Shown piece by piece: positions 1 through 45,200 of a stretch of 64,000 bases of DNA. Both the position numbers and the translations under genes were made by a program. The notes under the pieces are model-generated. The model did no database searches. It saw only the letters and a program-made list of their open reading frames with translations, and was not told the origin of the DNA. The number at the start of each line of letters is the position of its first letter. Within the stretch, counting starts at the first letter, position 1. The stretch covers positions 12,443,001 through 12,507,000 of the forward strand of contig CM027378.1 of assembly GCA_015680905.1 (NCBI GenBank), in the 5' to 3' direction. This DNA is from Coptis chinensis. Lineage: Eukaryota; Streptophyta; Magnoliopsida; Ranunculales; Ranunculaceae.

Positions 1-660
1 TCCATATTCATCATCCCTAGACCGCCCTCCTCCTTTGTTTTGCATATAGTGCTCAAGCTTGCTTGATGCACACAACATTTGCAATCAGTTCCGCTCCATA
101 GGAAGGTGACACAGATTTTCTCAATTTGTTCCAGAACAGCTAAAGGAAGTATGAATGTTTTGGCCCAATAAATGTTTAGATAGCTCAAGACCGAGAGGAT
201 CAACTGTAGTCTGCCTACATGAGATAGTAGTTTAGCTTTCCAGTCCTTGATGCGGCCTGTAACCTTTTCAATCAATGGTTGACATTCTTTGATTCCAAGG
301 CGAGCATAAATGAGTGGGTGACCGAGATATCTTACTGGAGGTTTCACAAGTTCCAATCCTAGGATCTGGGCCAGTGCTCGTGCATCATCATGAATCATAG
401 CTCCCGTCATAATAGTAGTCTTCTGAGGGTTGATGCTGAGTCCAATAGCTTCACTGAATATCTGTAAACAGTCCTTGAGGGCTACTATAGAGGTTACTTC
501 CCCTTTGCAGAAGATGAGAACGTCATTAGCAAAGGCCGAATGCGTCAACATGTTCCTCTTGCATTTAGAGTGGTATCGCATGAGTCTGGATTCTATGCTT
601 TCCCTGATCACAATTCCCAAAATTTCCATGACTAGCACAAAAAGATACGGGGACATGGGT
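1..660 (-). pseudogene. LINE ORF2 continued: RT active-site box and thumb, cut by the window edge
   Basis: After the frameshift near 658 the minus-strand frame resumes with the sequence that follows QGDP in reverse transcriptases (SPYLFVLVMEIL). The catalytic box normally reads FADD or YADD, but here it reads FAND (522-533), so the first catalytic Asp is Asn. The downstream thumb and connection region is typical of plant LINEs, with KPPVRYLGHPLIY, WKAKLLSHVGR and EEGGLGM. The frame stays open to the left edge of the window. Confidence 0.85.
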
Positions 661-2609
661 CACCTTGACACAAACCTCTTCCCCCAGCAAAAAACCCTTC
701 TGGAGACCCATTCACCAGGACAGAGAAGTAAGTTGTACTAATACACTTATGAATCCATCGTCGCATCTTCTGAGGGAATTCAAATTTCTCCAACAAAAGG
801 AGGATCGTATGCCAGCTTACCGTATCATATGCCTTTCTGATATCTAGTTTAACTGAGCATCTGGGTGTGACATGACGTCTATCATATCCTCTTAGCACTT
901 CATGAGCCATGAGGATATTATCTTGAATAGATCTACCTGGGATAAAAGCAGACTGATTCTCATGTACTAGTTCAGATATCACCATTTGTATTCTATTGGT
1001 GATTACTTTCGATATGCACTTATATATCGTGTTGCACAGTGCTATGGGTCGAAACTCTTCCACTATTGAAGGGTTACTCACCTTTGGGATGAGGCAGAGG
1101 AAGATTGCATTAATACCCCTCGGCATCTTGAAACATCTTAACACATTTTTAATAGCATTTATGACATCATCTCCCACTGTCTCCCAACAATATTTGAAGA
1201 AGAAAGGATTAAACTCGTCCGGACCAAGCACTTTATTATTCTCCATGTCAAAGAGACAAATCTAATCTCGTTACAGAACCTCTCATCAAGTACCTCCCTC
1301 ATGTTCGGCTCGATGACATTCCAGACTTTCAAATCCGTGAAAAACTCTCTCTCTCTCTAACTGGCGGCGCATCAGTACCTATCATCTTTCTGAAATACTC
1401 AATAATGATTTCTGATACTTCTGCCTGACCATGAACTGTAACCCCCTGATCATTTGCAATTGCCCAAATGCCTTTCTTGGCAGCTTTTTCCTTCAATGAA
1501 TTGAAGAAAAAGCTGGTGCATCTATCACCATCTATCATCCATTTCTCCTCATCTTTCTGTCTCATATCCTCTACTTCTGCTCGTGCAAGACTGATATACT
1601 TTTGCATTGCAGTCCTTTCCAGTGCTCCCAACATAGCATCATCAGACTTATTTTGAAACAACACTTGCTCATCCTGCAAATTTTGCCTAGCAACAATTAC
1701 TCTCTCATGTAAATTGGAGAAATTCCTTCTTGCCTATGGTCTAAGTCTTTCCTTTAGTAACTTGAGTTTCTGCATCAGGATATACATCAGATTATTATAG
1801 ATTTGAGTTGCCCAAACTTCCTCTAGCATAGTCTTAAACTCAGCCTGATAAACCCAAAAGTTGTAGAATCTGAACGGCATTGGCTTTCTGTTAAAATCAT
1901 TCCATGTAATGAGTATAGGGGAGTGATCAGAAACACCCTGTGGCAAAAAATCTGCTAAAGTTTGCGGGTATCGAGATAGCCACTAACTATTAACCAAACA
2001 TCTATCAATCCGCGACATGATTCTGGCTGACCCATTAGATTTATTCCACCAAGTGTAAAAGAACCCAGTAGATTTGATATCTGAGAGTCTCGCATTCTGT
2101 ATGCATAGACTAAAATTAGTCGCTTCATTCGGATGCATATGATCTCCACCTAACCTTTCATTTGTGGACAAAATGTTATTGAAGTCGCCTGCTACGCACC
2201 ATGGCATTTGAATCGATCTGTGGATGCCTAACAAATCCTTCCACAACACTAGCCTTTCCTGTGGAGCATTACTAGCATATATCACCGTGAGCAAGAACTC
2301 TTCTGGTGCTGGAAGATATGTAACTCTACAATGTATATACTGGTCCGAAGCGTCTATTCGATGAACTCTGACTACAGACAGATCCCAGCATATCCAGATA
2401 CGTCCAGAGTGACTCCTATCATAGTTATTAGTATGTTCCCATGTAGGGCAACATATATGTCTTATGAGGTCATACTTGGCTTGCTTAACTTTCGTTTCTA
2501 GCAGACCAAAGATACACAACTTTTTATTTTGTCTCACCTTGTTTATTTCCGCTGCTTTCAACAGATCATTTGCTCCTCTCACATTCCAAATACAAATTGG
2601 ACCTATCAT
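632..2609 (-). pseudogene. LINE ORF2, endonuclease and reverse transcriptase part
   Basis: The ATG at 2609 directly follows the ORF1 stop. The apurinic-type endonuclease shows WNVRG, LLETK, GDFN and SDHSP in the expected order, about residues 8 to 228. In-frame TAG codons follow CLVNS (near 1983) and KERLRP (near 1734). One frameshift lies between 1329 and 1246. Reverse transcriptase motifs follow: FRPIALCNTIYK, AFIPGRSI, KLDIRKAYDTV and CQGDP. A one-base deletion just after QGDP (near 658) shifts the frame. The protein copies the element RNA into DNA at the target site, but this copy cannot be functional. Confidence 0.9.
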
Positions 2610-4061
2610 TTAGAGATTTGAGTTTTTGTTTTTTGAACCCCTAGGGCGTCCCCTGCTCTTCTTTCCTTTGCTTTTCTTACCACTTGACTGATTAGTTGTT
2701 TGACCTTTACTCCTCGTCATCACACCAGCTTTTGGAGAAGCAGGTGGTTCCGGTCCAGACAGGGGGATATTATTCATATCCTTGAAGTAGATGGTTTCCT
2801 CCTCCGAAGTCTCCTCATCAGACAAGTCCCCATTTCTGGTTGCATCAAGGAGATTGTTGTATTCGTTCTGCTCAACATCATAATGCACCAGCAAATCTGG
2901 ATTTATCTGCATTTCATCAGTCTGAGTGTTCTCAAAAAGTACTAAGGCCACAAACATATTACGCTGGCATACGTCTGATTCACTGTCACTTTCATTTTCC
3001 TGTCTGTTTAATAATTCTTCTGGTACTTCTGCTGTTGTTGCTAACACTATAGCCATCACTTCGTTCTCTACCCTTTCCATTACTGTATTCATCTCTTCCA
3101 ATCCCACTGTAGGATCTTCTTCATTTATCATTGTTTCCACTCTTGCATCCACTCTCGTTGCATTGTCTTCACCCATGATATTCTCTGGACTGTTCAAATC
3201 TACCCCAGTTGCATTTAAACCTCCAGTTCCCAAATTCATGTCATTCATAGTGCCCTCAGTAGCACACTCCACAATTTGAACACCTCTCTCTTCCCGATCT
3301 ATCTCAGTTTGTGAGGTTGTGACTGGTGGCTCATTATGCTCTGTGTTCTCTGCCCTTGAATCATTTCTAATGCTACGGGTCACACTTGTTATCTCATTTG
3401 TGTGCACCCTAGTTTCCACAAGAGTATCAACCCTGTGCATATGCCCTATACTGATACAGTCATCAGTCTTGTGTCCAAACCTTTTGCAATAATCACACTT
3501 TTTTTGTACCCACCCATACTCTACAGAGATTTTCCTAACATCTTCACCACCCATATTTATTTCGAATGAGTCTGGCAACTCTGTAGTAATTTCAACTAGA
3601 ACACAAACCTTCACATACAATACTCTCTTTCTTGATGTTGTGGCTTCATCCATCCTCTGTGGATCTCCTATTCGGCTAGCTAAAAAACCCAACCCTTCTC
3701 TAGTTCATAGATCCTTAGTTACATTATATAGATTTAACCAGATTGGTATAACTTTAACAGAATTCTTTTTCCTCTCAATGTCCTGAAACCATTGAGTAAC
3801 AATGAAACATTTCCATGCCATGTAGATCTGGGGATATTCTAACACTTTCCTCTTATCTTCCTCATTAGTAAATTTAAAATAAAAAAGATCAGAATCAGCA
3901 ACCATCTCATATTCACCCTTTGTTTTCCATTTTTTCTTCAAGAACTCCTTCACCATCGGATATGGAAGCTTCTGTTCTAGAAAAAAACCCACAACATATT
4001 CACTCCACACTTGAGACCTTTCCACCTCAAATCCATCGGCACTTGGGTAATGATAAGACAT
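2610..4061 (-). pseudogene. LINE ORF1, main part (DUF4283 plus CCHC zinc knuckle)
   Basis: ORF1 of plant L1 elements encodes an RNA-binding protein that coats the element RNA. The first part (4061-3705) is a DUF4283-like domain with conserved Trp and Phe positions. An in-frame TGA at 3705-3707 interrupts it, and the same frame continues to 2610. A CCHC knuckle (CDYCKRFGHKTDDC) lies about 45 residues into the second part. A long acidic Asn/Glu-rich linker follows, then a basic Lys/Arg/Gly/Ser tail. The true N terminus lies beyond the LTR-like insertion at 5549-5775. Only the one stop was seen in this part. Confidence 0.85.
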
Positions 4062-22468: not shown

Positions 22469-23822
22469 TCACACGCAGGCGCGGGTGAACGAAGTGCGGG
22501 AGCGTGAAAATAAGATTGAGAAGAAGAGTTCAAAGAGTGATTTTTTTCTCCATCTTCCTCTTTCCATTTGGATCCATGACGGCGTCGCCATTTGAAGAGG
22601 ATCAAACTTACCATTAACTTGGAAGGTGTTGTTATCCTTGTAATCCTTCGAAGTGATTGCCCCATGTAGGGTGATTGCAGTGATCATGTAAGGACCAGTC
22701 CATTGAGTATTTAGTTTTCCTGTAAACAGATGTAACCTTGAGTTATAAAGTAAAACATTTTGACCAATTTCAAAATGTTTTTGTAAAATATGCTTGCCAT
22801 GAATTCTTTTCATGTTATTTTTGTAATTTTTAGAGAGATCATACGTATCATTTCGAATTTCTTCGAGTTCATTTATTTGTAGTTTACACTTCTCACCTGC
22901 CGCATCGAGATTGTAATTAAGGGTTTTTATTGCCCACAGGGCGCGATGCTCTAGTTCCACTGGCAGATGACAAGGTTTTCCAAAGACAAGCCTGTAGGAT
23001 GACATCCCTATAGGTGTTTTAAAAGCGGTTCGGTATGCCCATAAGGCATCATTTAGATGGGGAGACCAGTCTTTCATATTTGGATTAACTATTTTTTTCA
23101 AGATGCGTTTTATCTCTAGATTAGAGACTTCCGCTTGACCACTTGTTTGGGGATGATATGGAGTTGCAACCTTATGTGTTACTCCATATTTTTTCATGAC
23201 ATGTTCAAAGAGTCGATTACAAAAATGTGACCTTCCATCACTAATGATGGCTTTTGGAACGCCAAATCTTGAAAAAATGTTTTCTTTTATAAAAGATATT
23301 ACAGTTTTGTTATCAGTGTTACGACATGGTACGACCTCGATCCACTTGGATAGATAGTCTACGGCGACTAGGATGTAGATTAAACCGTGAGATGTGGGAA
23401 AGGGTCCCATGAACTCGATGCCCCATATATTGAAAATCTCCACTATGAGAATGGAATTTAAGGGCATCATATTATGTTTAGAAATACGACCAAGATGTTG
23501 GTAATGAAGGCAAGCTTTACAATGATCAAAAGCATCACGAAAGAGTGTCGAGCAATAGAATCCATATTGCTACACTTTAGATGCGGTTTTGTTTGCACTA
23601 AAATGTCTTCCACAAGACTATTCGTGACAAAAAGAGAGAACGACAGATTGTTCCTAATATGGAATGCAACATCGGATAATCTGGTTAGGACAGTACTTGA
23701 AAAGGTAAGGATCATCCCAATGATAGTACTTTATTTGTGCTAAAAACTTCTTATGTTGATTTCTATTACACCAGGGTGGAGTGTCTCCAATCACCAGAAA
23801 GTTAAAAATATCAGCATACCAA
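22469..23822 (-). pseudogene. Ty3/gypsy (Athila/Tat-like) integrase, decayed
   Basis: The minus strand begins at the RNase H-integrase linker (WYADIFNFLVIGDTPPW, FKYCPNQI). Next comes the zinc-binding part with FCHE and [15 protein letters not shown], with in-frame stops. The catalytic core is open from 23470: [21 protein letters not shown] and [10 protein letters not shown]. The first residue of the usual DDE triad is Glu (GIEF instead of GIDF). A C-terminal domain with WTGPYMI and FQVNGKF follows, then an atypical tail. The linker is cut at 23822-23824, exactly where an LTR-like arm begins, and RT and RNase H are not found nearby. The enzyme inserts retroelement DNA into the genome, but this copy is dead. 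Confidence 0.9.
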
Positions 23823-25469: not shown

Positions 25470-26539
25470 CATTGAAAAAGCACACAACACGTAATTATTT
25501 GTATGTGTCGTTGTTTGTGCTACGTTTATTTTGCAAATCTTACTTAGTCTATTGAATATTGATTATTATAGTGGCTAGCAAGGTATCAATCCTACTCTAA
25601 ATAATTAGTTGATGATAATAGAAACTTCTAATCTAAATTACTCTAATGGATGCAAGTAAAAGATGTGGCTAATTAATAATGAATATATGGTTGATTTGGT
25701 TTGAGATTTAAACTATTGCATAAATTAAACTAAATTAAATATATTAATATGAATCAAGAGAGAGAATATCTTGGGAGAGATGAATCCACCAAAATCATAG
25801 AATTAGTCTAATAGATTTACCTATCATGTTTAATATAAATCACCAATAGAAATTCACCATATCTACAAACCTTATGCTCATAACCATGATGATAATATGT
25901 GGCTTTCAACATGCTTTCTACCTTACTACCAAGTACTTCTTCAATCTCCAATGATATCTTCTATCTAACCAAATTATGTTTTAAGTGGCATTCAATATAC
26001 AACTCTAGCTGTCATGAAAAATCCACATGTGGCATTAATCATACAACTAATTTAGGTGTCATAAAGAATCCAATCATCACACTAGAACACTAAAAACTAG
26101 AAGAAAAGAATCTAGGGTTTGTGGTATTTGGCTCTACACAATCATGAATTACTCTAAGACCTCCTAACCTCCACAAAGAGCGTTAGATTAATGGACGAAT
26201 AAAAAGAAACTCAATGGGGGATTTATACTAGAACATGATAGAAGAAAAAACTAAACTAAAGCATAAGAAAAAAGCTTCATCTCCCCTCCTAAGAGAAGGG
26301 AGATTAACTCTTCATACTATGCTATGAACAGAATATGAAAAGAAATAATCTTTATTGATGGTAATGGTGAAAAAGGTTTGAACTTTTTTCTCTCTTAATT
26401 CTAGATCTAAGATGCAAACTAAATTTCCTACACTACCAAAAAAACGAGTTTACCCGACATACACCATAAAGAATATCCGACGGTTTCCATCAGTAGGAAG
26501 TACCCGGCAGATTTTGTCGGTCGGGTATAATATTTCCAT

Positions 26540-27480
26540 CTATCGGGTAAGCTCCCTAGGTACTTCATTTGTTTTAGTTGTGGCTGACGGTTGTAGGAGA
26601 GTTATTGTCCGTCGGCTATTTCGACGGTTTTTAATTGTTGTTGATTTCCAACAAACTACGTAATTTCCCGACTGTTGTTTCAATATTTTTCAATGTTTTC
26701 AAACCGTCGGATTTGCTCCTACGAGTTTGGGCCATCGGCATATCTCTTCCGAATACCAGACGCCAAATTAATTTCATTTCCCACGCCTAATTTTTAGGAA
26801 AAAAAATAAATAAATAACAAAAAGATAACCCAAAAACTGTTATCCCTCTCTCATTCAGGGCTTGTTGTAGCCGCTTCACTCCTTCTCTCGTTATGGGTTC
26901 GTTGAATTCTAGGTAAACCATAATAAATTGCTTGTCTTTCTGCCCAATTTCTATCTTTGATTTATGTAAGGATTCTTTAACTTAATCTTTTATGTGTTCA
27001 TGATCTTCACGCAAGGCATGCAACTACACGAGGAGTTCATCAATGGGATTACAGATGTTAGTGGTGTATGTGGTAATAGGAGGCAACATGTACTTCTCAG
27101 ACTTGCTCTTAATGATGTGGTAATCATCTATCTTTACTGGTTTAACTTTCTTGTCAATAGCATTTCTAAACTTTGAAGTAATTTTTGAAGTAATTTCTAA
27201 GCATTGTAAGTGTTATTTGAAGTAATTTTTTCCCATTCTTTCGATTAGTAATCTGGACTTAAAATGAACAGCCCCATAAATGCTTTGTTATTGGCTCATC
27301 TGAGTCCACAACTTTTTTTGTGAGCGAATGTACAGATGCTGTGACTAGCCATTTCACTCATTAGAGTTGCCTTCGAAACATTTTTGTTCCTAGTTAAGTG
27401 AAATATTTGAAACTTTAGTGCCTTGCTTTTCATTGATGACTCACTTATTCATAGTGTATGTTTCTGTTTTTTCTTTTGTA
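26540..27480. other. CACTA interior, left part, unidentified
   Basis: After the terminal repeats there is AT-rich sequence with a small open stretch at 26994-27176 (MQLHEEFINGITDVSGVCGN...). It may be part of the host gene that supplied the bZIP exons or of another capture. I did not recognise it. Confidence 0.35.
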
Positions 27481-27492
27481 TTTTTTTGTCAG

Positions 27493-27836
27493 GAGTTATT
27501 TGTGAATGGGGAGTTCAGATTTCAATGGGCGGAAGTTGAAAATATAATGGCTAATGAGAAACTTGCTGAAATCGCTTCAGCGGACCCCAAACATGCCAAA
27601 AGGTAGTCTTTCTTCCAATTTTCAGTTTTGTAGCATTTGGTATAGACTAAAGGGAATGCCAAGTTATGATGATGTTAATACTCTATTCTTAAACTGATTG
27701 TTGTAGGATTTTAGCTAATCAACAATCAGCAGCTCGTTCCAAGGAACGAAAGAAAGATGAGGTATATTTCTTAGAATTGGAACACGAAGTTCAAACCTTA
27801 CAAACAAAAGCAACTACTTTGTCCAGCGACAAATGA
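27493..27836 (+). pseudogene. Captured bZIP transcription factor exons (VIP1/RF2a-like group)
   Basis: Two exon-like pieces are joined by a GT-AG intron (27603-27706). The first encodes NGEFRFQWAEVENIMANEKL and ends SADPKHAKR. The second continues in frame with [19 protein letters not shown] and [17 protein letters not shown]. This is the basic region and first zipper heptads of the VIP1-like bZIP group, nuclear DNA-binding factors. The invariant NRQSAARS is NQQSAARS here, losing one DNA-contacting Arg. A TGA at 27834 ends the frame after SSDK, so the rest of the leucine zipper is missing. It lies inside the CACTA element, so it is a transduplicated fragment. Confidence 0.85.
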
Positions 27837-28648
27837 CAATCGTTCTGTGTGTATTCTTTATTTACTTTAGTGTGCTCAAGCTCGCGACTCACTCTCACAC
27901 TCAACCAAATACAAATTCACTCCTTTTTAGTGTTTTTAAAATAAAATCTTGATTTCACATATACTAATCTTTTGTTTTAGGGGTGAAGATTCTTGGTCTC
28001 TGGAGATAAGTGTTGGTGGTCTTTTTAGTGCTCTTCTTGGTATGTTCACTTGTATTTTCTTTTTTGTTCGGTAACTAGCTGATAGTTTCCTAAGGCCATA
28101 AACTAATGGCCTTGAATTGGTTTCATCAATTAGTGGTGTTGGGCTTGCTGCAATATGAAATATATCCACTGAAGGTTTCCCTGATTCCGGTTACTTCCCT
28201 ATAATTTGAATTCTTAAGTTGCGACTTTGAGCTAATATATTAGCCCCAAGTCCCCAACTATATTTCATGATGCTAACTATTGTATTTGTGATGCTAATTA
28301 TTGTATTCATGAGCTTCCCAAAGTCCAAGACCACATGCTAATTGTTTCCAATAATCTTTTAGTATATGCTCTTGTTTCTCGATATTTCTGGTACTTGCGT
28401 TAGTTTATGTGTCGTAGGTCTTGTTTCTCTTCAACATGGTTTTTTTTTTGTATGTGTAAAGCTTTAAAGAGAGCAAAATACTACTATTCTTTTTTATTTT
28501 TATTTTTATTTTTTTATTATTTTTATTTTTTTTGTGGTGATGAATTTCATGTTAACTTATAAGGAGAATAATGGTGATGGACTAAAGTAGCTCATCATTG
28601 ATTTCTAAAACGCTTAAACCGTTTGATGGACAAAGTTATGGTGAAGGT

Positions 28649-28741
28649 GAAGATATAAGGATTAGTTTACCTGATGAAATTCTTCACCTCATTTTTTTCA
28701 TTCATTCCTACTGTTGATTCATGTAAGGCTGTTTTTAAGAT
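28649..28741 (+). pseudogene. Captured F-box motif fragment
   Basis: The plus strand encodes EDIRISLPDEILHLIFF and, after a one-base shift, FIPTVDSCKAVFK. Together they match the start of a plant F-box domain (SLPDEILHxIFSFIPTVDSCKA). F-box proteins select substrates for SCF ubiquitin ligases. Only about 30 residues remain, so the call rests on a short motif. It lies between the bZIP and H+-ATPase fragments within the CACTA element. Confidence 0.6.
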
Positions 28742-29418
28742 TTTTAGTTGAACTTGTGGTTGTTGCTTTTAATTTATAATTTCATCTATTCATTTTTGTT
28801 ACACGTCCTTTCTACTTGTGCTAGATACTAAGTAAGTGTAGGTCTTCTTTAATAATTGTGATGTTGGGACCTTTTATTAAAATCCCAAGATTTTTTAAGG
28901 CACATTCTCACATTCACATAACTACCAAGGCTTAGGTCCATAATGACCTTTCTACTTTAGTTTTTTTCATGCATTTCTTCTTGAATAAGTTAATTTATCA
29001 TTATTGTGTTATCTTAATGTATGTAGCCAATCGCGGCGCCCACCGGTTAAGGAAGAGTCACATGTGGACACGGGGAGGTGTTTGTGTGTGCAACTAATTG
29101 ATCTTTTTAACTTCTCACCAGTGCAACTAGTCCATCCTCATGTAGTACATCCCTTTTACTTGTTGATTAACCTAGGGGGTTAGGTTTGTATTAGTGCATG
29201 GAAATTGGTAGTATACTTGTTATTCATTTGTTACATGGCTTTATTCCTTTAATTGTATGTGCCTTAATTGATTTCTTATATGTTGCAAGTACTCAAGAAA
29301 AGGTTATTCCTTGTGTTTACGACATTGTTGCAATTGAATGGAGGGATTAATATTCTGACCAACTTTGACTTGTCTTATGGGGCTTAAAGTTTGCGTCTCA
29401 TTGCATTTTATTATTTTA

Positions 29419-30087
29419 GAGCACAAATATGAGATTGTGAAACGCTTGCAAGCGAGGAAACATATATGTGGAATGACTGGTGATGGAGTGAATGATGCTC
29501 CTGCCCTTAAGAAGGCTGACATTGGAATAGCAATCGTTGATTCAACTGATGCGGCTCGTAGTTCCGACATTGTCCCGATAGAACCCCGGCCTAAGTGTCA
29601 TCATCGCTGCTATATTGATCGATGAGAGCAATCTTTCGAGGATGAAAAACTATACGGTGATTTTTTATTCTGTTCATGGTCTAGTATGGATTAGCTATAC
29701 TTTACATTTATCCTTTCGCTTGCAATTTGATTGCCGTTTTTTGTTTTTTTGGATAGTAAATGAAATGAAAACTAGATCATGTTTTGTGTTTTCTTTTCTT
29801 GATAACGTTTTTGGTGGTTGCAGATATATGCAGTTTCCATCACAATTCATATTGTGGTAAGCTTCCTAGTAGTCTTAGGGTTATTCACTTGCATCATTTG
29901 AGTACTGTAATCTGGAAAAATAGTAGGCATACTAGATAGGAGTCTTTTTAGATTTTTATCATCAAGTTGTACAGTTCTTGCCTTCTCACCATGATTTTCA
30001 TTTGACAGTTTGGTTTCATGTTGCTTGCTCTTCTGTGGAAGTTTGATTTTCCACCTTTCATTGTGCTCATCATTGCAATCCTGTGTC
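29419..30087 (+). pseudogene. Captured plasma-membrane H+-ATPase (P3A) exons
   Basis: Three exon-like pieces are seen: 29419-29656, 29824-29856 and about 30009-30087, with GT-AG introns between. The first has [20 protein letters not shown], the hinge motif [19 protein letters not shown], and [12 protein letters not shown], then a short frameshifted stretch ending RMKNYT. The second encodes IYAVSITIHIV. The third encodes FGFMLLALLWKFDFPPFIV. These are consecutive parts of the P-domain end and following membrane helices of plant AHA-type proton pumps. The phosphorylation-site DKTGT region and the C-terminal regulatory domain are absent. It is a fragment captured with its introns. Confidence 0.9.
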
Positions 30088-30679
30088 ATGTGTTGAAGAT
30101 TGAGCATTGCCAGATGGATTGGAGAAATGACATATTAGGCAAGGCTCAACAGGAAAGGCGATTTCTAGTCAATTTACTTTCATTCATAAGAAATTATGTT
30201 TCCCTCCATGATCAGTAGGTAGATTTCTATTAGAGGCATATCAAATACCTCTCCCAGGAGATGTTACTAGTAATCTTGTGATAGTCAAGTGATCTAGTGG
30301 CCCATGTCAGAGATCCAAGCTGGTTAGACATTCAATGGTGGCGTTACTATGTGCTTTAGAGCTGACCAATTCTAATTTTGAATTTCAGCAGGTTGCTAAA
30401 GAATTGGTGCTTAGTCATTACTAGGGTACTAGAGATTACTAGGACGGGTTGCTAGATAGATGGTGTGGTGCTGATTTTTGGTTTCTGAAGGAAGTAATAT
30501 GTATACTTAGTGAACGACATGTCTTATTCTTGTTTTTTTTTATGAACACATTGTTTCTTTATGAATACATTAGCGTTTGTAGTATTTGAGTAGGAACTTG
30601 CAAGAATGTAATTGGTGCAGGAAAGAATGTAATGTTGGGATACCTGAAACAATTATTATAAGAAATATATTTTTTTTAA

Positions 30680-30965
30680 ATAAAGAACTAATACCCGACG
30701 GATAAAAACTGTCTAATAGCAAACTACCCGACGGCTAGTAGCTGGCATATCCGACGGCTGGTGATAGCTGGTCTAACCGACTGTTCATAACAGCAGAACT
30801 ATCCGACGGTTTTTAACAGTAGGAATATCCGACGGTTTTTAGCAGTAGGAATATCCGACGGTCTTTGACAGCAGCAACTATCCGACGGTTTTTGACAGCC
30901 GGCATATCCGACGGTTATTAACAGTAGGAATGTCTGTCGGCAAAGATCTTCAACCCCGACGGCCT
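30680..30965. repeat. Subterminal repeat array of the first CACTA element
   Basis: A unit of about 26 bp containing ATCCGACGGTTTTTRACAGT repeats at least five times in a row, with further variants of ACCCGACGG on both sides. A shorter set (ATCCGACGG, ACCCGGCAG) lies in the left end at 26440-26540. In CACTA elements such repeats bind the element-encoded TNPA-like protein. The binding here is inferred from family knowledge. Confidence 0.85.
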
Positions 30966-31679
30966 GTTTTGACCAATAAAAACCGTCGGAAGCCTATGCC
31001 GACCGAGTATTTTCCGACGGCCTTGCGGCAGTTTTTGTCTGTCAGGTAATACCTTTCGTGACAGCCATAGTTAGTCGGGTAAAGTCGTTCTTTTTGTAGT
31101 GCTAGATCCTGTAAATTTATGTTTTTGTGCCTTATATATTGGCTTACATGTTCGTTTGAATACAGATTCGAATCCTATGTTTATTTTGTGTCAAACTTTC
31201 TAGAATATTTCTAGAAGTAATCATAAAAAAGTTGGATTCGGTTTGACAAAAATTGGACGTGGCCCACTTTGCCCTAAAGGCTATTTCCCAAGCTGCAGCT
31301 TCTAATAGCTTTCAGTTTCCTAATTCTTGTGAAACTCTAAATTATTTTCCATGTTGATCTTCTCTTCCTATGAAGTTGAAATTAAGGCTTTGAGATCATA
31401 TTTAAGACTCTTCTAACTCAATTATTATCATCTTTTATAGTCCCATTAGGCTTGGCACTTATGGAGACAAATATAACATTTTGTCTTTATGTCTTTAGCT
31501 GTAATTCTCAGTGACTCATTTTTTTACTGGTTTGACTTCTTTTCCCTTAATATTTCACATTTAGGTTCTTTGACCTACAAAAACTCAAATTGCATCATAT
31601 TAGAATATTTAAATAAAAAATGGAGACTAACATATACATAATTGGGGATGTAAATCATTACTTTTGAGCACTTATTACA

Positions 31680-33962: not shown

Positions 33963-36578
33963 TTATGTACTATTGCACCTTGAGCAATGCATTTTCCTAC
34001 CTTTCTTGCTAAGTTGGTGAGAAGGCTTGTCTTGTGTCACTTGTGTAACCCTTCTAGTACCCACTGCCACCCCTTCCTTTCTTCTATTCTTCTTGGGCCT
34101 ACTAAGCATTCTCCTTTCTATTGGAGGCAAAAAAGCTTCCTTCCTTATTCTATTCCATAGGTTTTGGCCATTCAAAGGTTGCAACACATGACTATATGTC
34201 TTCATATACTCAGTCACAGAATACCAACTTGATATATACTTCAATGGATCAATGTTGACAAAATACATAACAGATATGGAGTGTGCACATGGGATGCCAG
34301 TCAACTCCCACATCTTACAAGTACATATCATAGCTTCCACAGCAACAGTGAAGGCCTCATACTTGTTCTTCCTTACCTCAAATGACTTGGAGCCATTGTA
34401 CTATGCTGTCTAGTATCTATGGTCCTCCTTTTTTTTCTCTAGCTTTTTTATTATCATAGGACATATGTCACCCTTCCATTTTTGCATGTCTGAAATCTTC
34501 TTTTGCATCATTCTCATCACTTGCAACCTGATTTCCTCAAGCATCTCTATGATATTCTTTTCCCTTGCTTCTACTGTGTTTGAATTGAATGTCTCACATA
34601 TATTGTTGTCAACACAGTCAGAAGAATCAAATGTGGTAAAGAATGCCCTTGACCATTGTTTTGGGTTTTGCTTCACCATCAGGTGTTCATATGCTGGTGT
34701 AGAATACTTCTTCAATTCTTCCATGATACCATCAAACTCTTGAGGTGTCTCGCATTTGCTAGCCTTCTAAAATAAGAACTTATACTATAAACCAGGGAAT
34801 GACTTTTTAAATTGGCATAAATATGCCTAGCACAATTCCTGTGCTCAGCAAATGGCAAATAGTCTTTAACTACTTGTACAAGGCCCTTTTGTTAATCACT
34901 TATAATGGTCAAGCCAAGTCCTTGTCCCTTACTGTAACCAAGTCTTGCATTAACAAATCAGGAAACCACTTCCAACTTTTTGAGTTTTGTACTTGTATTA
35001 CCGCCCATGCTATTGGGAACATTTGATTGTTTGCATCCCTCCCAATGGCTGCAAGTAGCTCCCCTTTGTAGTAACCCTTTAAGAAACATCCATCCACCCC
35101 AATAACTAGTCTGCAACCACTTTTCAAAGCATCTATAAGTTCTCTAAACCCTATATACATACTCTTGAAAACTGTAGGTCCATTAGGTTCAGGATTCCAT
35201 GTCACAATGATCCCAATTGTACTACCAGGATTACTCATTTTAAGCTCAAACTAGTAGTCCCATAACTTTGTATATACTCCACCTAACCTACTTTCCACTG
35301 CATCTAGAACTTTCTTCTTAGCCCTACAACATTGACACAATGTCACATCTAGCTTAAACTTATAAGATATATGTTCTTTCAAATTTTTCAACTTTATTTT
35401 AGGGTACTTGAGTATCTTGTCATGATAGATCCTAGCAATCCATTTACAGTTAGCAACTCGAACATCAAAGACCTTGGAACATGTATGTTCCTCTATATAA
35501 GATTTTATTTGAAAAATTCTTTTTGTATTCATCCAACTAGCATACAATCTGAAAGAACACCCCTCAGCACAGATTACAAGAATTTTTTTCTTGTTGTTCA
35601 ACTTGAACCACAATTGGTACCCATGTGCAACTGCAAAGTCCTTCAAACAATCTTTCAATTGATTAACATTAGTAAAGACCATCCCTAGTGCGGGTCTCAC
35701 ATGAAACACATCAGTTTTGGGATCAAAAGTAGGGTACTTCATCTTCTTGAACTTTCTAAGTATGGTACCATCATCATCCACATCCACATCTGTATCAGGG
35801 CTATCATAATCACTAGAATCTAAATAGTCACTATCAACATCTTTTAGTTTCACCTCTTCATCACTTGCAACATTCCTTGCTTCATCAACATTCATTGCTT
35901 CATACACATCACTGCCATCACTAGTTATAGCTTGATCAACAGTTCCACCATTCAATGCTTGATCACCACTCTCACCATTCACTGCTTCATCACCACCATT
36001 TTTAGTCACTGGAATATTTTCAGGTTCATCATCATCCCAAATGGATTTCATTCTTGCAATTCTTCTTAGCCTGTTTCTTTCTTCAACCATTTTTCTAACT
36101 TCAATCAGCTCCTCATCATTATCAGACAACTCAAGCAAATCCTCAAATTTAAATTCATCCTCAGACTCACTACAAGAAAGATAAACCCTCTCATTCTGTA
36201 ATTGAGTTTGTATCTCTTGCTCTTCCCCATCCTCTAACTTTACTTCTTCAATAACATGTTCAACAATCAACTCATGCTCAGTATACACCTCAATACCATT
36301 CCCAGCCTTAGTTTCTTTCAACATTTCCATCACACCACAATCATCATGAACCAATATATAGCTAGTGCCTCTAAACCCATAGAAGTGAATTTTGATGATA
36401 TTGGAATAACCAACCCATCTACAAGTTCTTTCAAATCAAAATAACCAAACCTATTAGGATTAATATTGTAAAAATATGATACCTTACCCCCACGATAGTG
36501 AAGCTTTGGAGTCGTAGCAAATCCTCCTCCATGATGGAGATGAATATCAATACTATTCACTACATAATTAAACAACAC
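33963..36578 (-). pseudogene. MULE transposase (mudrA-like) with few disabling changes
   Basis: The N-terminal domain (36578 on) has the family pattern HHGGGF, YRGGKVSYFYNI and GYFDLKELV. A one-base shift near 36390 moves to a frame open from 36354 to 35251 with an acidic linker. The MuDR N-terminal transposase domain follows (FHVRPALGMVFTN, VICAEGCSFRLYASW, HTCSKVFDVRVANCKWIA). An in-frame TAG precedes MSNPGSTIG. The catalytic MULE domain has VIGVDGCFLKG and FPIAWAVIQVQNSKSWKWF. After further stops (34909, and near 34410) the SWIM finger appears as CTCKMWELTGIPCAHS, then a basic C terminus. An exon-like tail at about 33815-33650 may be a last exon. The enzyme cuts and moves the element, but this copy is inactive. 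Confidence 0.92.
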
Positions 36579-41169: not shown

Positions 41170-44100
41170 GAAATAAGTGGCTATGGATTCTTGTCAAAGA
41201 AGGTACTATAGTATCCACCATCCACTCATCAGATCAACATATTTCCGTCCTTATAGATGACTGTGTGATCTCTTTTGTACACGCCAATTGCAATCTGGGC
41301 CACAGAAGAAGACTATGGAGTGAATTAGAGGTACTCAACCACACCCAACCATGGTTGGTCATAGGAGACTTCAATTGTGTTCTCAAATATGAAGAAAAAC
41401 GAGGGCTACCACCTAACAGAATCGCCATGAATGAGTTTCACGCTTGCATTAACACATGTCAACTGATAGAAAGTTCTTTTGATGGTATGGAGTTCACTTG
41501 GTCGAATAACCAAAAGGACTATAGGAGACAGGTGTCCAAGCTTGACAGAGCTTTCTTCAATTCAACTTGGAATAAAAAATATGGAGGGTGAAAATACAAA
41601 GTGGGGTCTAGAAACGCTTCCGATCATGCTCCCTTGATTGGTATGCATTTTTTGATCCCCAAACCAAAGAACTCTCCTTTCATATTCAATAAGGTGTGGA
41701 GTACACATCCAACCTTTATGGATATGGTTCAGAGCAACCGAATCGGTGGTAACTGGGGGTCCTATCATTCAGGTGATGAAGAAACTTCAAAGGCTCAAGG
41801 CAGAAATCAAAGTATGGAATCGTGAAGTGTTTGGGCATTTGGACACCAATATAAGAAAGGCAAAAGGTGAACTTATGCATACCCCAAGCTAGAGCGGACC
41901 AACTACTATATGATTTACCTTTGCAGAATTTGGTTATACATAAGCAAGAACTCCTCGAAACGGCCAGGAATAATAGGGCAAGCCTCTGGAGACAGAAAAG
42001 CAGACTGAAATTCGATGAAGAGATGGATTGCAACTCAAAATACTTCCATAACACATTAAAATTTCGACAAGGAGCAGCTATAATCTCTAAATTGGAAACC
42101 AAAGAAGGGGTTTTGTTAACTGACCAGCAACACATAAGAGATTACATCATCCAGTTTTATGAAGAAAAATACAAAGAAGTACCAACTGTACAAGATGACC
42201 ATCTCCTAAGTTTGGTCCCCAATCTTGTAACAACAAAAGACAATTGCATGCTCACCATGATACCTTATTATGCAGAAATAGAGCAAGTTATGTTCTCCAT
42301 GAAAACAGATAGCTCTCCTGGCCCAGATGGTTTTTAGGGGCACTTTTATCACCAATGTTGGCCTACAATCAAGTTGGAGGTATACAAAGCAGTCCAATCT
42401 TTCTTCATCCAAGTGATAGTGCCTAAGGGTCTAAACTCAAACTTTGTCACTTTGATTCCTAAGGTGAAAAATGCGAGTAAACTCAGCAACTTCAGACCTA
42501 TATGTGTTGGTAACTTTCTTATGAAGATTATATCAAAGCTTTTGCAGCTGAGACTTAACATGATTGCCGACAAAATTATCACAAAAGAACAGACAGGTTT
42601 TGTTCCAGCGAGATCAGCTCAGTCTTCGATTGCCTTAGCTTCTGAGCTCTTTAATGAGATGAAAACAAAAAGACATGGTGGGAATGTGGCAATATAACTT
42701 GTTATATGTCAAGCATACGATTCTATGAGTTGGAACTTCTTATGTCAAGTTTTGAGTAAATTGGGCTTTTCTAGTACTTGGATCAGATGGATAAAAGCAA
42801 TTATGAGTTCTGCGTTCATATCAGTGATGCTTAATGGTGGCCCTATTGGTTTTTTCTCCATGGGAAGGGGCCTCAAACAAGGAGACCCTCTTTCTCCCTT
42901 GTTATTTGCTATCGCAGAAGATGCCCTAAGTAGGGGATTTCACCACTTAAGAACACTTTGCCTGGTCAAGCCAATGGTTACTTTCATGGATTTTCAAGCT
43001 CCTAGTCACCTCTTTTTTGCCGATGACATCATCATATTTGCAAATGGTGATATAAGAGGTCTGAGGCACATCAACAATCTGTTGGGTAGATATCAGTTGG
43101 CATCTGGGCAGTGCTTGAATAAAGACAAGTCCAAGATCTTTATGAGTGGTTTCAGATAATTGAGAAAGGAGAGGGCAATACAGGTTCTATTAATTCCCGA
43201 AGGCTTTCTACCAGAAAAATACTTGGGAGTATCCATGGTGCAAGGGCGAATAACAAGACAGACAGTGACTCCAGTCCTAGATAAGATTAAAAAGAAACTC
43301 ACTTGCTGGAAGGGTAGAAATCTTTCTTTCCAAGGAAGAAACATTCTTATCAAAGCCGTGTTGTGCAGTACACCAATCTATAATATGGCAGTATATAAAT
43401 GGTCGTCTTCTATCATAAAGGAAGCAGAGACACTCATGCGAAACTTCTTATGGATAGGGGACCCTTCAAAAAGGAGAATCACGACTGTGAGTTGGGAAAA
43501 ATCATGCAAGCCTGTTCAAGAAGGAGGGATTGGAATTAAAAGGATGAGAGAAATTAACCTTTCTATGCAGATGAAACTAGCCTAGTCGATCTTAAATGGT
43601 AAAGACGACTTCGCCATGCTCATGAGATCTAAATTCACAGGAAGGAATGGAGGTTTTATTCACTACCATAAACTATCCTCGATCTGGCCAGGAATCAAGG
43701 AAGCACTCTTTGAGGTTACAACCAGAAGTCAATGGATAATTGGGAATGGTAACAAGGTCAACATCTGGAGAGATAATTGGCTCGGGGACTTTTCTCTACA
43801 ACAACTTATGCACTTGAGTGATCGAGATATAGCAGGCCACAATGCTAAGTTATCGACTATGGTCAATGACAATGTAATTGTCATACCCCAGAGTCTCATG
43901 CATGTTCTGGACAATCTAGGAGTCAGCCCAAGATCTCCAATTATTTGCAACTCCGAAGTCGAAGATTATAGAATATGGTGCCAAGATTCTAAAGGCAAGT
44001 TTTCCACAAAATCTGCTTTCGAAAGTATCAGAAGAACTAGACCAAAAGTAAGTTGGTACAAAAACATTTGGAACAACTTCATTCACCCAAGAACTACTGC

Positions 44101-45200
44101 TACAGGGTGGAAGCTCCTCCATGGCTGCGTTGCAACAGATGACAGAATCCAAAAATCCGGTATCCGATTAGTATCTGCATGCAGGTTGTGTAAATTAGCA
44201 GAAGATCACCTAATAACTACTGCTACAGGGTGGAAGCTCCTCCATGGCTGCGTTGCAACAAATGACAGAATCCAAAAATCCGGTATCCTATTAATTAGTA
44301 TCTGCATGCAGGTCGTGTAAATCAGCAGAAGAGAATCTAACACACTTGTTATGGGAGTGTAATTTTTCTACACAATTGTGGACATGGCTAGCTACGGGCT
44401 TTCTTATTCAACAACCTCTTCTAGGTTTTAAGGAAGCAATTCTTCTCTCTAAGTCTTGGAGCCCGATGATGAAACAAATTTGGAACTCAGGGGTGGTGGC
44501 AGCAATGGTAAGCTTATGGAACATGAGGAACAAGGTGTACTTTGAGAGTAAAGTATCCAATCTTATGGACTATAAACAGTTTGTTAGAGCTCAAATCGTA
44601 TGCACCCATCACCGGAGTAAAGCTTGCAATGGGAACAACAACTGGGAAACACTAGTTCTGACGAACTAGGCAGTAACTCCAAGACCCAAACAAGCACCTC
44701 AACTGAAGACATGTGTTTGGATTCCTCCAGAACCAAACATCATGAAGCTCAACATTGACAGGGCAGTGTTTGGGAGTCCAGGGCCTTCGGGCATTGGGAT
44801 ATGTTGCAGAGATTCTAAAGGAGAGTTCATCTTCACTTTTTGCAAAAGACTAACAAATGGTACTATAGATAGAGCTGAAGCTTATGCAGTTGTCGAAAGG
44901 ATTGAAATAGCTATCAGTAGAGGCTTCTATCATCTTTGGGTGGAGTCAGACTCTCTCTCAACTGTTACCTCTTTCAGTTCAGGCGGAATACCATGAGAAT
45001 TACATTCAACACGGAAGAGATGCAAACATAAAATCACATCGATCAGGTTCACTCATATATGGAGGGAAGCCAACATATCTGCGGATACCCTTGCTAAAGC
45101 TGGAGCTGCTCTTCCCGTCGACGATTTCCTGTTTTTTGTAGGAAAGCCCACATGGCTACTCAAATGGGAATGCCCATTTGAGCATTTTAGTAGAATATGT
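41170..45200 (+). pseudogene. LINE ORF2 in sense: endonuclease, RT, zinc-binding and RNase H domains
   Basis: The endonuclease remainder shows SFVHANCN, WLVIGDFN, MEFTWSNN and SDHAPLI. Reverse transcriptase follows with SSPGPDGF, LSNFRPICVGNFLMKII, GFVPARSAQSS, QAYDSMSW, GLKQGDPLSPLLF and an intact LFFADDIIIF (about 43009-43041). The zinc-binding RT-associated region (WKLLHGCVATDDRIQKSG, CRLCKLAEDHL) is duplicated in tandem. A type I RNase H domain ends the protein (LNIDRAVFGSPGPSGIG, RAEAYAVV, WVESDSLS, 44742-44996). Around eight stops or frameshifts break it. The RNase H first Asp region is NIDRA instead of the usual NTDGA. Confidence 0.92.
44092..44336 (+). repeat. 123-bp in-frame tandem duplication in the LINE zinc-binding region
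   Basis: The phrase starting ACTACTGCTACAGGGTGGAA occurs at 44093 and again at 44216, a 123-bp period equal to 41 codons. The reading frame passes through both. The second copy has a small insertion (TTAAT) that then shifts the frame. Confidence 0.85.

Follow-up and report, generated by a model that had tools for sequence, protein, structure and literature searches.

The window analysed here is a stretch of 64,000 nucleotides from Coptis chinensis (assembly GCA_015680905.1, contig CM027378.1, positions 12,443,001 to 12,507,000), and at its positions 26431-31101 lies a non-autonomous CACTA element of 4,671 bp that starts with CACTACC, finishes with GTAGTG and carries pieces of several unrelated host genes, all on the same strand (Table 1). 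Three features of the CACTA superfamily are present: CACTAC stands at either end in inverted orientation, CTA flanks both ends, and CCGACGG/CCGTCGG subterminal motifs are confined to 26477-26710 and 30695-31020. An earlier note, made by a model from the letters of this stretch, had placed a Pack-CACTA element at the same coordinates, with perfect ends, a 3-bp duplication, same-strand pieces of three unrelated host genes (bZIP, plasma-membrane H+-ATPase and F-box) and no visible transposase. The coordinates, the duplication and the shared strand hold, as do the CACTA arms of the terminal inverted repeats (TIRs), but the arms are not perfect.

In a six-frame Pfam scan of the element, the only matches were to a P-type ATPase (Hydrolase) and a bZIP; each lies on the + strand and stays below the Pfam cut-off in that scan. 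A transposase domain did not appear at E up to 0.1, in agreement with the earlier note; in a listing of stop-free stretches of at least 40 codons, the longest has 97 codons. Host coding DNA is present, a transposase of its own was not found in six frames, and the element occurs in multiple copies at independent insertion sites, the properties of a Pack-CACTA. We consider it highly probable (about 0.93) that this is a non-autonomous Pack-CACTA, presumably dependent on a CACTA transposase supplied in trans, and that it bears exons and introns from no fewer than four host genes (sigma-70 factor, bZIP, trehalose-phosphate-synthase-like and H+-ATPase), plus a piece of a fifth.

Table 1. Features of the element and its borders, in window positions.
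Feature	Positions	Strand	Basis or comparison
Left target site duplication CTA	26428..26430	.	sequence read
5' terminal inverted repeat	26431..26458	+	28 nt, 89% complementary to 3' arm
5' terminal module, subterminal CCGACGG/CCGTCGG motifs	26431..26892	+	81-85% alike in distant relatives L021-L027
Putatively captured block, not in 7/7 distant relatives	26893..27886	+	comparison with L021-L027
Sigma-70 factor exon and its splice donor	27004..27123	+	87% to C6:92.84 Mb
Piece of fifth, unnamed host gene	27198..27344	+	87% to C5:80.0 Mb, 86% to C4:30.36 Mb
bZIP piece: exon end, intron, next exon, start of following intron	27499..27863	+	85% to C6:41.23 Mb gene
Element's own intron-like stretch	27887..27977	+	adjoins 5' module in distant relatives
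Trehalose-phosphate-synthase-like exon end and splice donor	27979..28058	+	93%; 90% over 93 bp; C2:91.08 Mb
Second stretch of C2:91.08 Mb gene, internal deletions	28142..28337	+	~1.5 kb downstream of first stretch in donor locus
Stretch once read as F-box	28543..28888	+	no F-box profile match; five other loci match
Stretch before ATPase module	28734..29372	+	dispersed repeat in right part (~29153-29372)
Piece of plasma-membrane H+-ATPase gene: three exons and two introns with intact splice sites	29372..30082	+	donor alignment and profiles
3' terminal module with array of ~26-bp CCGACGG repeats	30082..31101	+	sequence read
3' terminal inverted repeat	31074..31101	-	28 nt, 89% complementary to 5' arm
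Right target site duplication CTA	31102..31104	.	sequence read

Origins of the captured gene pieces

The H+-ATPase exons match TIGR01647 (E 6.6e-27) and the AHA2-type structure 5ksd (E 2.4e-23). The bZIP exons, with their intron, match PF00170 at E 4.3e-05, below the Pfam cut-off, and the gene at C6:41.23 Mb matches the same profile above it (E 4.6e-09); the exon frames of that gene are open and its alignment to the window includes the intron. Two of the three profile assignments in the earlier note, bZIP and P-type ATPase, are thus borne out, and likely donors were found for both; the bZIP piece may be VIP1-like, as that note had it. The F-box capture at ~28660-28720 is rejected, with no Pfam family matched at E up to 10, and none in the six-frame scan at E up to 0.1. 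Of the five loci that match the surrounding stretch, one (L056) was read, and there the stretch adjoins a CACTA 3' end.

The number of host genes is nevertheless higher than the three first counted, since a sigma-70 exon, two trehalose-phosphate-synthase-like stretches and the fifth gene piece had been overlooked. Three other loci match the sigma-70 exon at 86-87%; the gene at C6:92.84 Mb contains Sigma70_r3 (E 1.2e-16) and Sigma70_r4 (E 4.2e-15), and the donor alignment extends across the splice donor. The two trehalose-phosphate-synthase-like stretches stand in the window in the same order as in the gene at C2:91.08 Mb. A neighbouring exon at that locus matches Glyco_transf_20 (E 1.4e-54), and on this basis the gene is probably a trehalose-phosphate synthase.

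Splice boundaries were read from alignments of the window with the donor loci, and nine of the ten donor-exon boundaries retain AG/GT in the window; the tenth, the donor of bZIP exon 2, has changed there and is intact in three sister copies (L010, L013 and L018). The left border of the ATPase piece coincides with the edge of the dispersed repeat: among the 22 repeat rows from C2:109.79 Mb to C3:89.20 Mb, 18 stop at 29372 (query 1053) and the rest at query 1024 or 1049.

Copies, mosaic relatives and construction of the element

The genome searched comprised 935,630,033 bases in 116 contigs, in which the 28-nt 5' end was found, with at most two mismatches, at 269 places (134 + 135), the reversed control giving 0. 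The bZIP-to-ATPase arrangement recurs at four further loci (L010, L013, L018 and L012, the last with its ATPase part rearranged), each with its own 3-bp duplication, bringing the copies of the arrangement to five on four chromosomes, with differing flanks and duplications. More broadly, a 3-bp duplication was present at 10 of the 11 related loci tested, the exception being L023. The earlier note had suggested a search for sister copies, which these loci provide, and had named the same gene order and spacing without TIRs as evidence against its reading; all four other bZIP-to-ATPase loci have both TIRs and duplications. Its overall reading, a Pack-CACTA with unrelated host gene pieces, is supported by the ends, the duplications, the copies, the ATPase and bZIP matches, and the lack of a visible transposase.

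The identical joins at five places also bear on whether the arrangement is an assembly artefact made of chimeric contigs. The published assembly, of 936.6 Mb with nine chromosome-scale molecules of more than 85 Mb each that together hold 916.5 Mb (~97.9%), was built from Oxford Nanopore R9.4 reads with Albacore calling and Illumina polishing (PMC8172641). These are early nanopore reads, and the differences between copies partly resemble base-calling errors; however, the same joins on four chromosomes, with differing flanks and duplications, make an artefact extremely improbable.

Beyond these copies, the relatives form a mosaic in which conserved ends enclose different interiors. Four loci (L009, L011, L015 and L016) have the ends of the window element with other DNA between 27314 and 29182. 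This replacement DNA is the same in all four, and in L009 it contains exons of an NhaD antiporter gene (TIGR00775, E 2.3e-14 and 3.1e-12) in place of the bZIP. In L041-L043, different DNA lies upstream of 29370 and is joined there to the ATPase module; in L042 and L043 it reads by eye as the preceding ATPase exon, with no profile match. The ATPase module itself occurs at no fewer than 28 places, the window included and donor genes excluded, among the best 40 of 94 candidates scored.

The bZIP piece was also found in L014, L017 and L047, and the window's ATPase exons are absent from L014 and L047, with none found at the L017 locus. In L047 the bZIP piece is followed, past the counterpart of 28874, by ~180 bp of other DNA and then by the 3' module at 30082; this is a state without the ATPase piece, since ATPase homology ends at 30082. 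At L017 (C5:24956700-24963700), where similarity to the window stops at 29372, and at L059, the bZIP copy is split by a stretch with hAT-like open reading frames (ORFs), as read by eye. A different repeat, which is 90% alike across 2.78 kb in L045 and L048, bears the bZIP piece of the window element, and five such loci were found. Matches to Mlo, PPP5, PMR5N, IPPT and PHD_Oberon were seen in the elements or loci L014, L023, L026, L027 and L047.

All seven distant relatives (L021-L027) have the counterpart of window 27887-27977 at 18-54 bp beyond their 5' module, and because of this the stretch 26893-27886 looks like an insertion into a pre-existing element. The absence of this block, the L047 state and the repeat edge at 29372 fit successive addition and exchange between conserved ends. 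Host pieces would accordingly have been captured in successive steps, and a transposase made elsewhere would cut and paste the element. Its copies would be heavily methylated and mostly silent. Read-through from the 5' end or from a neighbouring gene could then lead to splicing of the sense exons as cassettes, as for soybean Tgm-Express1; a protein function of the element's own would not be expected.

An alternative origin is the fusion of two neighbouring CACTA copies, the outer ends of which then moved together, and such a tandem-insertion model has been published for Pack-TYPE elements (PMC8903248, PMC13317346). Two loci do share a 2-kb block, 95.6% alike, in which a CACTA transposase neighbours a 5' end of the Pack type. 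Such a fusion predicts inner TIR remnants, and none were detected, although inner TIRs may have been lost later; moreover, the bZIP-containing block lies within a stretch that is nearly uninterrupted in 7/7 distant relatives and looks like an insertion into one element. We therefore regard fusion as unlikely.

The blocks just mentioned deserve a description of their own. At L064 (C9:24766600-24768700) and L065 (C2:105076850-105078900), on two chromosomes, a CACTA transposase gene (Transpos_assoc, E 3.9e-17) and a Pack-type 5' end carrying a CN_hydrolase-like piece stand back to back, and the block could be a composite moved or duplicated as a unit. Elsewhere in the window, ORFs at 632-3692 (-), 22469-23470 (-), 35251-36354 (-) and 43616-44320 (+) resemble by eye a LINE-type reverse transcriptase, an integrase, a MuDR-like transposase and a reverse-transcriptase-linked protein.

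Exchange between halves of copies, through recombination or gene conversion, may still be going on, since the nearest relative of the window element shifts from L009 at the 5' end (98.6%) to L013 in the middle (98.3%) and L041 at the 3' end (96.8%). However, branching is star-like and differences at CG sites are inflated, and a single clade for the arrangement was not rejected in three segments, which leaves continuing exchange a doubtful explanation. Across four segments, non-consensus letters were 3.0 to 6.6 times as dense near CG as they were at positions away from CG/CHG (4.8% v 1.6%, 8.2% v 1.7%, 8.7% v 1.3% and 8.3% v 1.6%). This excess covers transversions and indels as well as transitions, and would fit methylated cytosines, with part of it decay and part base-calling error. 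In the middle segment, the five copies differ away from CG/CHG by 0.93% per pair (116 of 12,480), as against 2.69% overall. Because the differences cluster at CG/CHG, single-copy frame lesions are not reliable and may be sequencing errors, and raw divergence misleads for dating, so that no age is claimed. Other early nanopore assemblies may call for the same caution when methylated transposons are dated or their frame lesions interpreted.

Several points weigh against a Pack-CACTA built stepwise and moved in trans. Identity to the donors is just ~78-93%, with an ATPase exon that is 15.7% different, and for this reason the exact donors may be lost or may be other paralogues. Comparison of the genome's Transposase_21 matches with the TIRs did not reveal an autonomous element bearing this pair of ends. 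The search for an internal TIR remnant in the element gave a best score of 17 of 28, no better than 60 shuffles (mean 17.1, maximum 19), and approximately unbiased (AU) tests on the segment trees did not support recombination among copies (p 0.313, 0.384 and 0.357). The methylation proposed above is likewise deduced from the pattern of differences. Candidate sources of transposase are present in the genome, with at least 150 Transposase_21 matches above the cut-off among the best 150 of 2,715 candidates scored. Two TIRs ~1.45 kb from a transposase domain were considered as an autonomous partner and rejected, as both face away from the domain.

Orientation of the captured pieces

The single orientation of the pieces in the window extends to the related elements. 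Eight elements were scanned in six frames with Pfam, the window element, L014, L026 and L027 over their full assumed length and L023, L047, L020 and L019 in part, and no Pfam family was matched (E up to 0.1) in any of the 24 antisense frames. The sense frames contained Hydrolase, bZIP, Mlo (3.9e-14), PMR5N (1.2e-10), PPP5 (1.2e-10) and IPPT (0.00049, below the cut-off), with PHD_Oberon in L047 (E 4.6e-19). The partial scan of L020 gave no host domain, and that of L019 just one viral name below the cut-off, which was taken as chance. The CN_hydrolase piece of L064 is also in sense (E 0.00068, below the cut-off). When sigma-70 and trehalose-phosphate synthase (both by donor alignment), NhaD and CN_hydrolase are added to the scan matches, and the fifth-gene piece at 27198-27344 and PHD_Oberon are left out (the part of L047 examined has no 5' end), every one of the 10 host genes that lie in elements whose 5' end is known is in sense, eight of them on strong matches and two, IPPT and CN_hydrolase, on matches below the cut-off. 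The two-sided chance under a fair coin is ~0.008 for eight and ~0.002 for 10.

One possible explanation is that sense exons are selected for splicing, such that members with sense pieces are less harmful or better transcribed and the family serves as an exon trap and a source of chimeric transcripts. The uniform sense orientation, the lack of Pfam families in antisense frames and the retention of most splice boundaries would be consistent with this, as would the 5' module of the relatives, which runs into a donor-like AAG/GTAC site. However, the frames of the window copy are broken, two of the eight scanned elements (L020 and L019) show no host domain, the independent genes are few, and the bias could arise in the capture process itself; selection for splicing is accordingly a tentative suggestion. 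In its strongest form, capture or survival would be strictly one-way, in the sense of the 5' end and with working splice sites, and the family would be a genome-wide exon trap with the 5' module as first exon and new exon combinations arising through block addition and exchange; we advance this as a speculative proposal. The portions of the literature covered by our search mention no strand bias among gene pieces captured by CACTA elements, which is not proof of absence. The one-way orientation makes directly testable the long-standing question of whether gene-carrying transposons are filtered by transcription and splicing.

Comparison with known gene-carrying transposons

The window element is genuine, a Pack-CACTA present in several copies and carrying pieces from four or more host genes that could be named, and its kind is already known. 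Helitrons are rolling-circle elements without TIRs, unlike CACTA elements. Maize Helitrons nevertheless offer a parallel, in that related copies bear different gene pieces and have been read as products of successive capture (PMC3288121). For CACTA elements themselves, both the Pack-CACTA type and multi-gene capture are established (PMC1947982, PMC8903248, PMC8978399, PMC4290129). The gene captures in CACTA elements of wheat chromosome 3B share with the Coptis family the gene pieces, inter-family exchange and exon shuffling, with the difference that expression and selection were measured in wheat (PMC4290129). Pack-CACTA elements of Arabidopsis, maize and rice likewise combine CACTA TIRs, a target duplication and coding DNA with the lack of a transposase, and those of maize often hold several loci in one element (PMC8903248); in comparison, the Coptis elements form a mosaic family with one-way pieces in what is apparently an early-diverging eudicot, and are known from sequence alone.

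Soybean Tgm-Express1 (Zabala and Vodkin 2007; PMC1947982) is a CACTA element 5.7 kb long in which fragments from five unrelated host genes are held, and the window element is close to it in having unrelated host gene pieces with exons and introns retained. Cassette splicing was shown there by reverse-transcription PCR (PMC1947982), whereas the Coptis element shows retained splice sites. The genes and the plant are different, and the Coptis arrangement exists in five copies and has mosaic relatives. To these known systems, Coptis chinensis adds a well-resolved Pack-CACTA family in which likely donors, block-free relatives, sister copies and module exchange can be followed within one genome.

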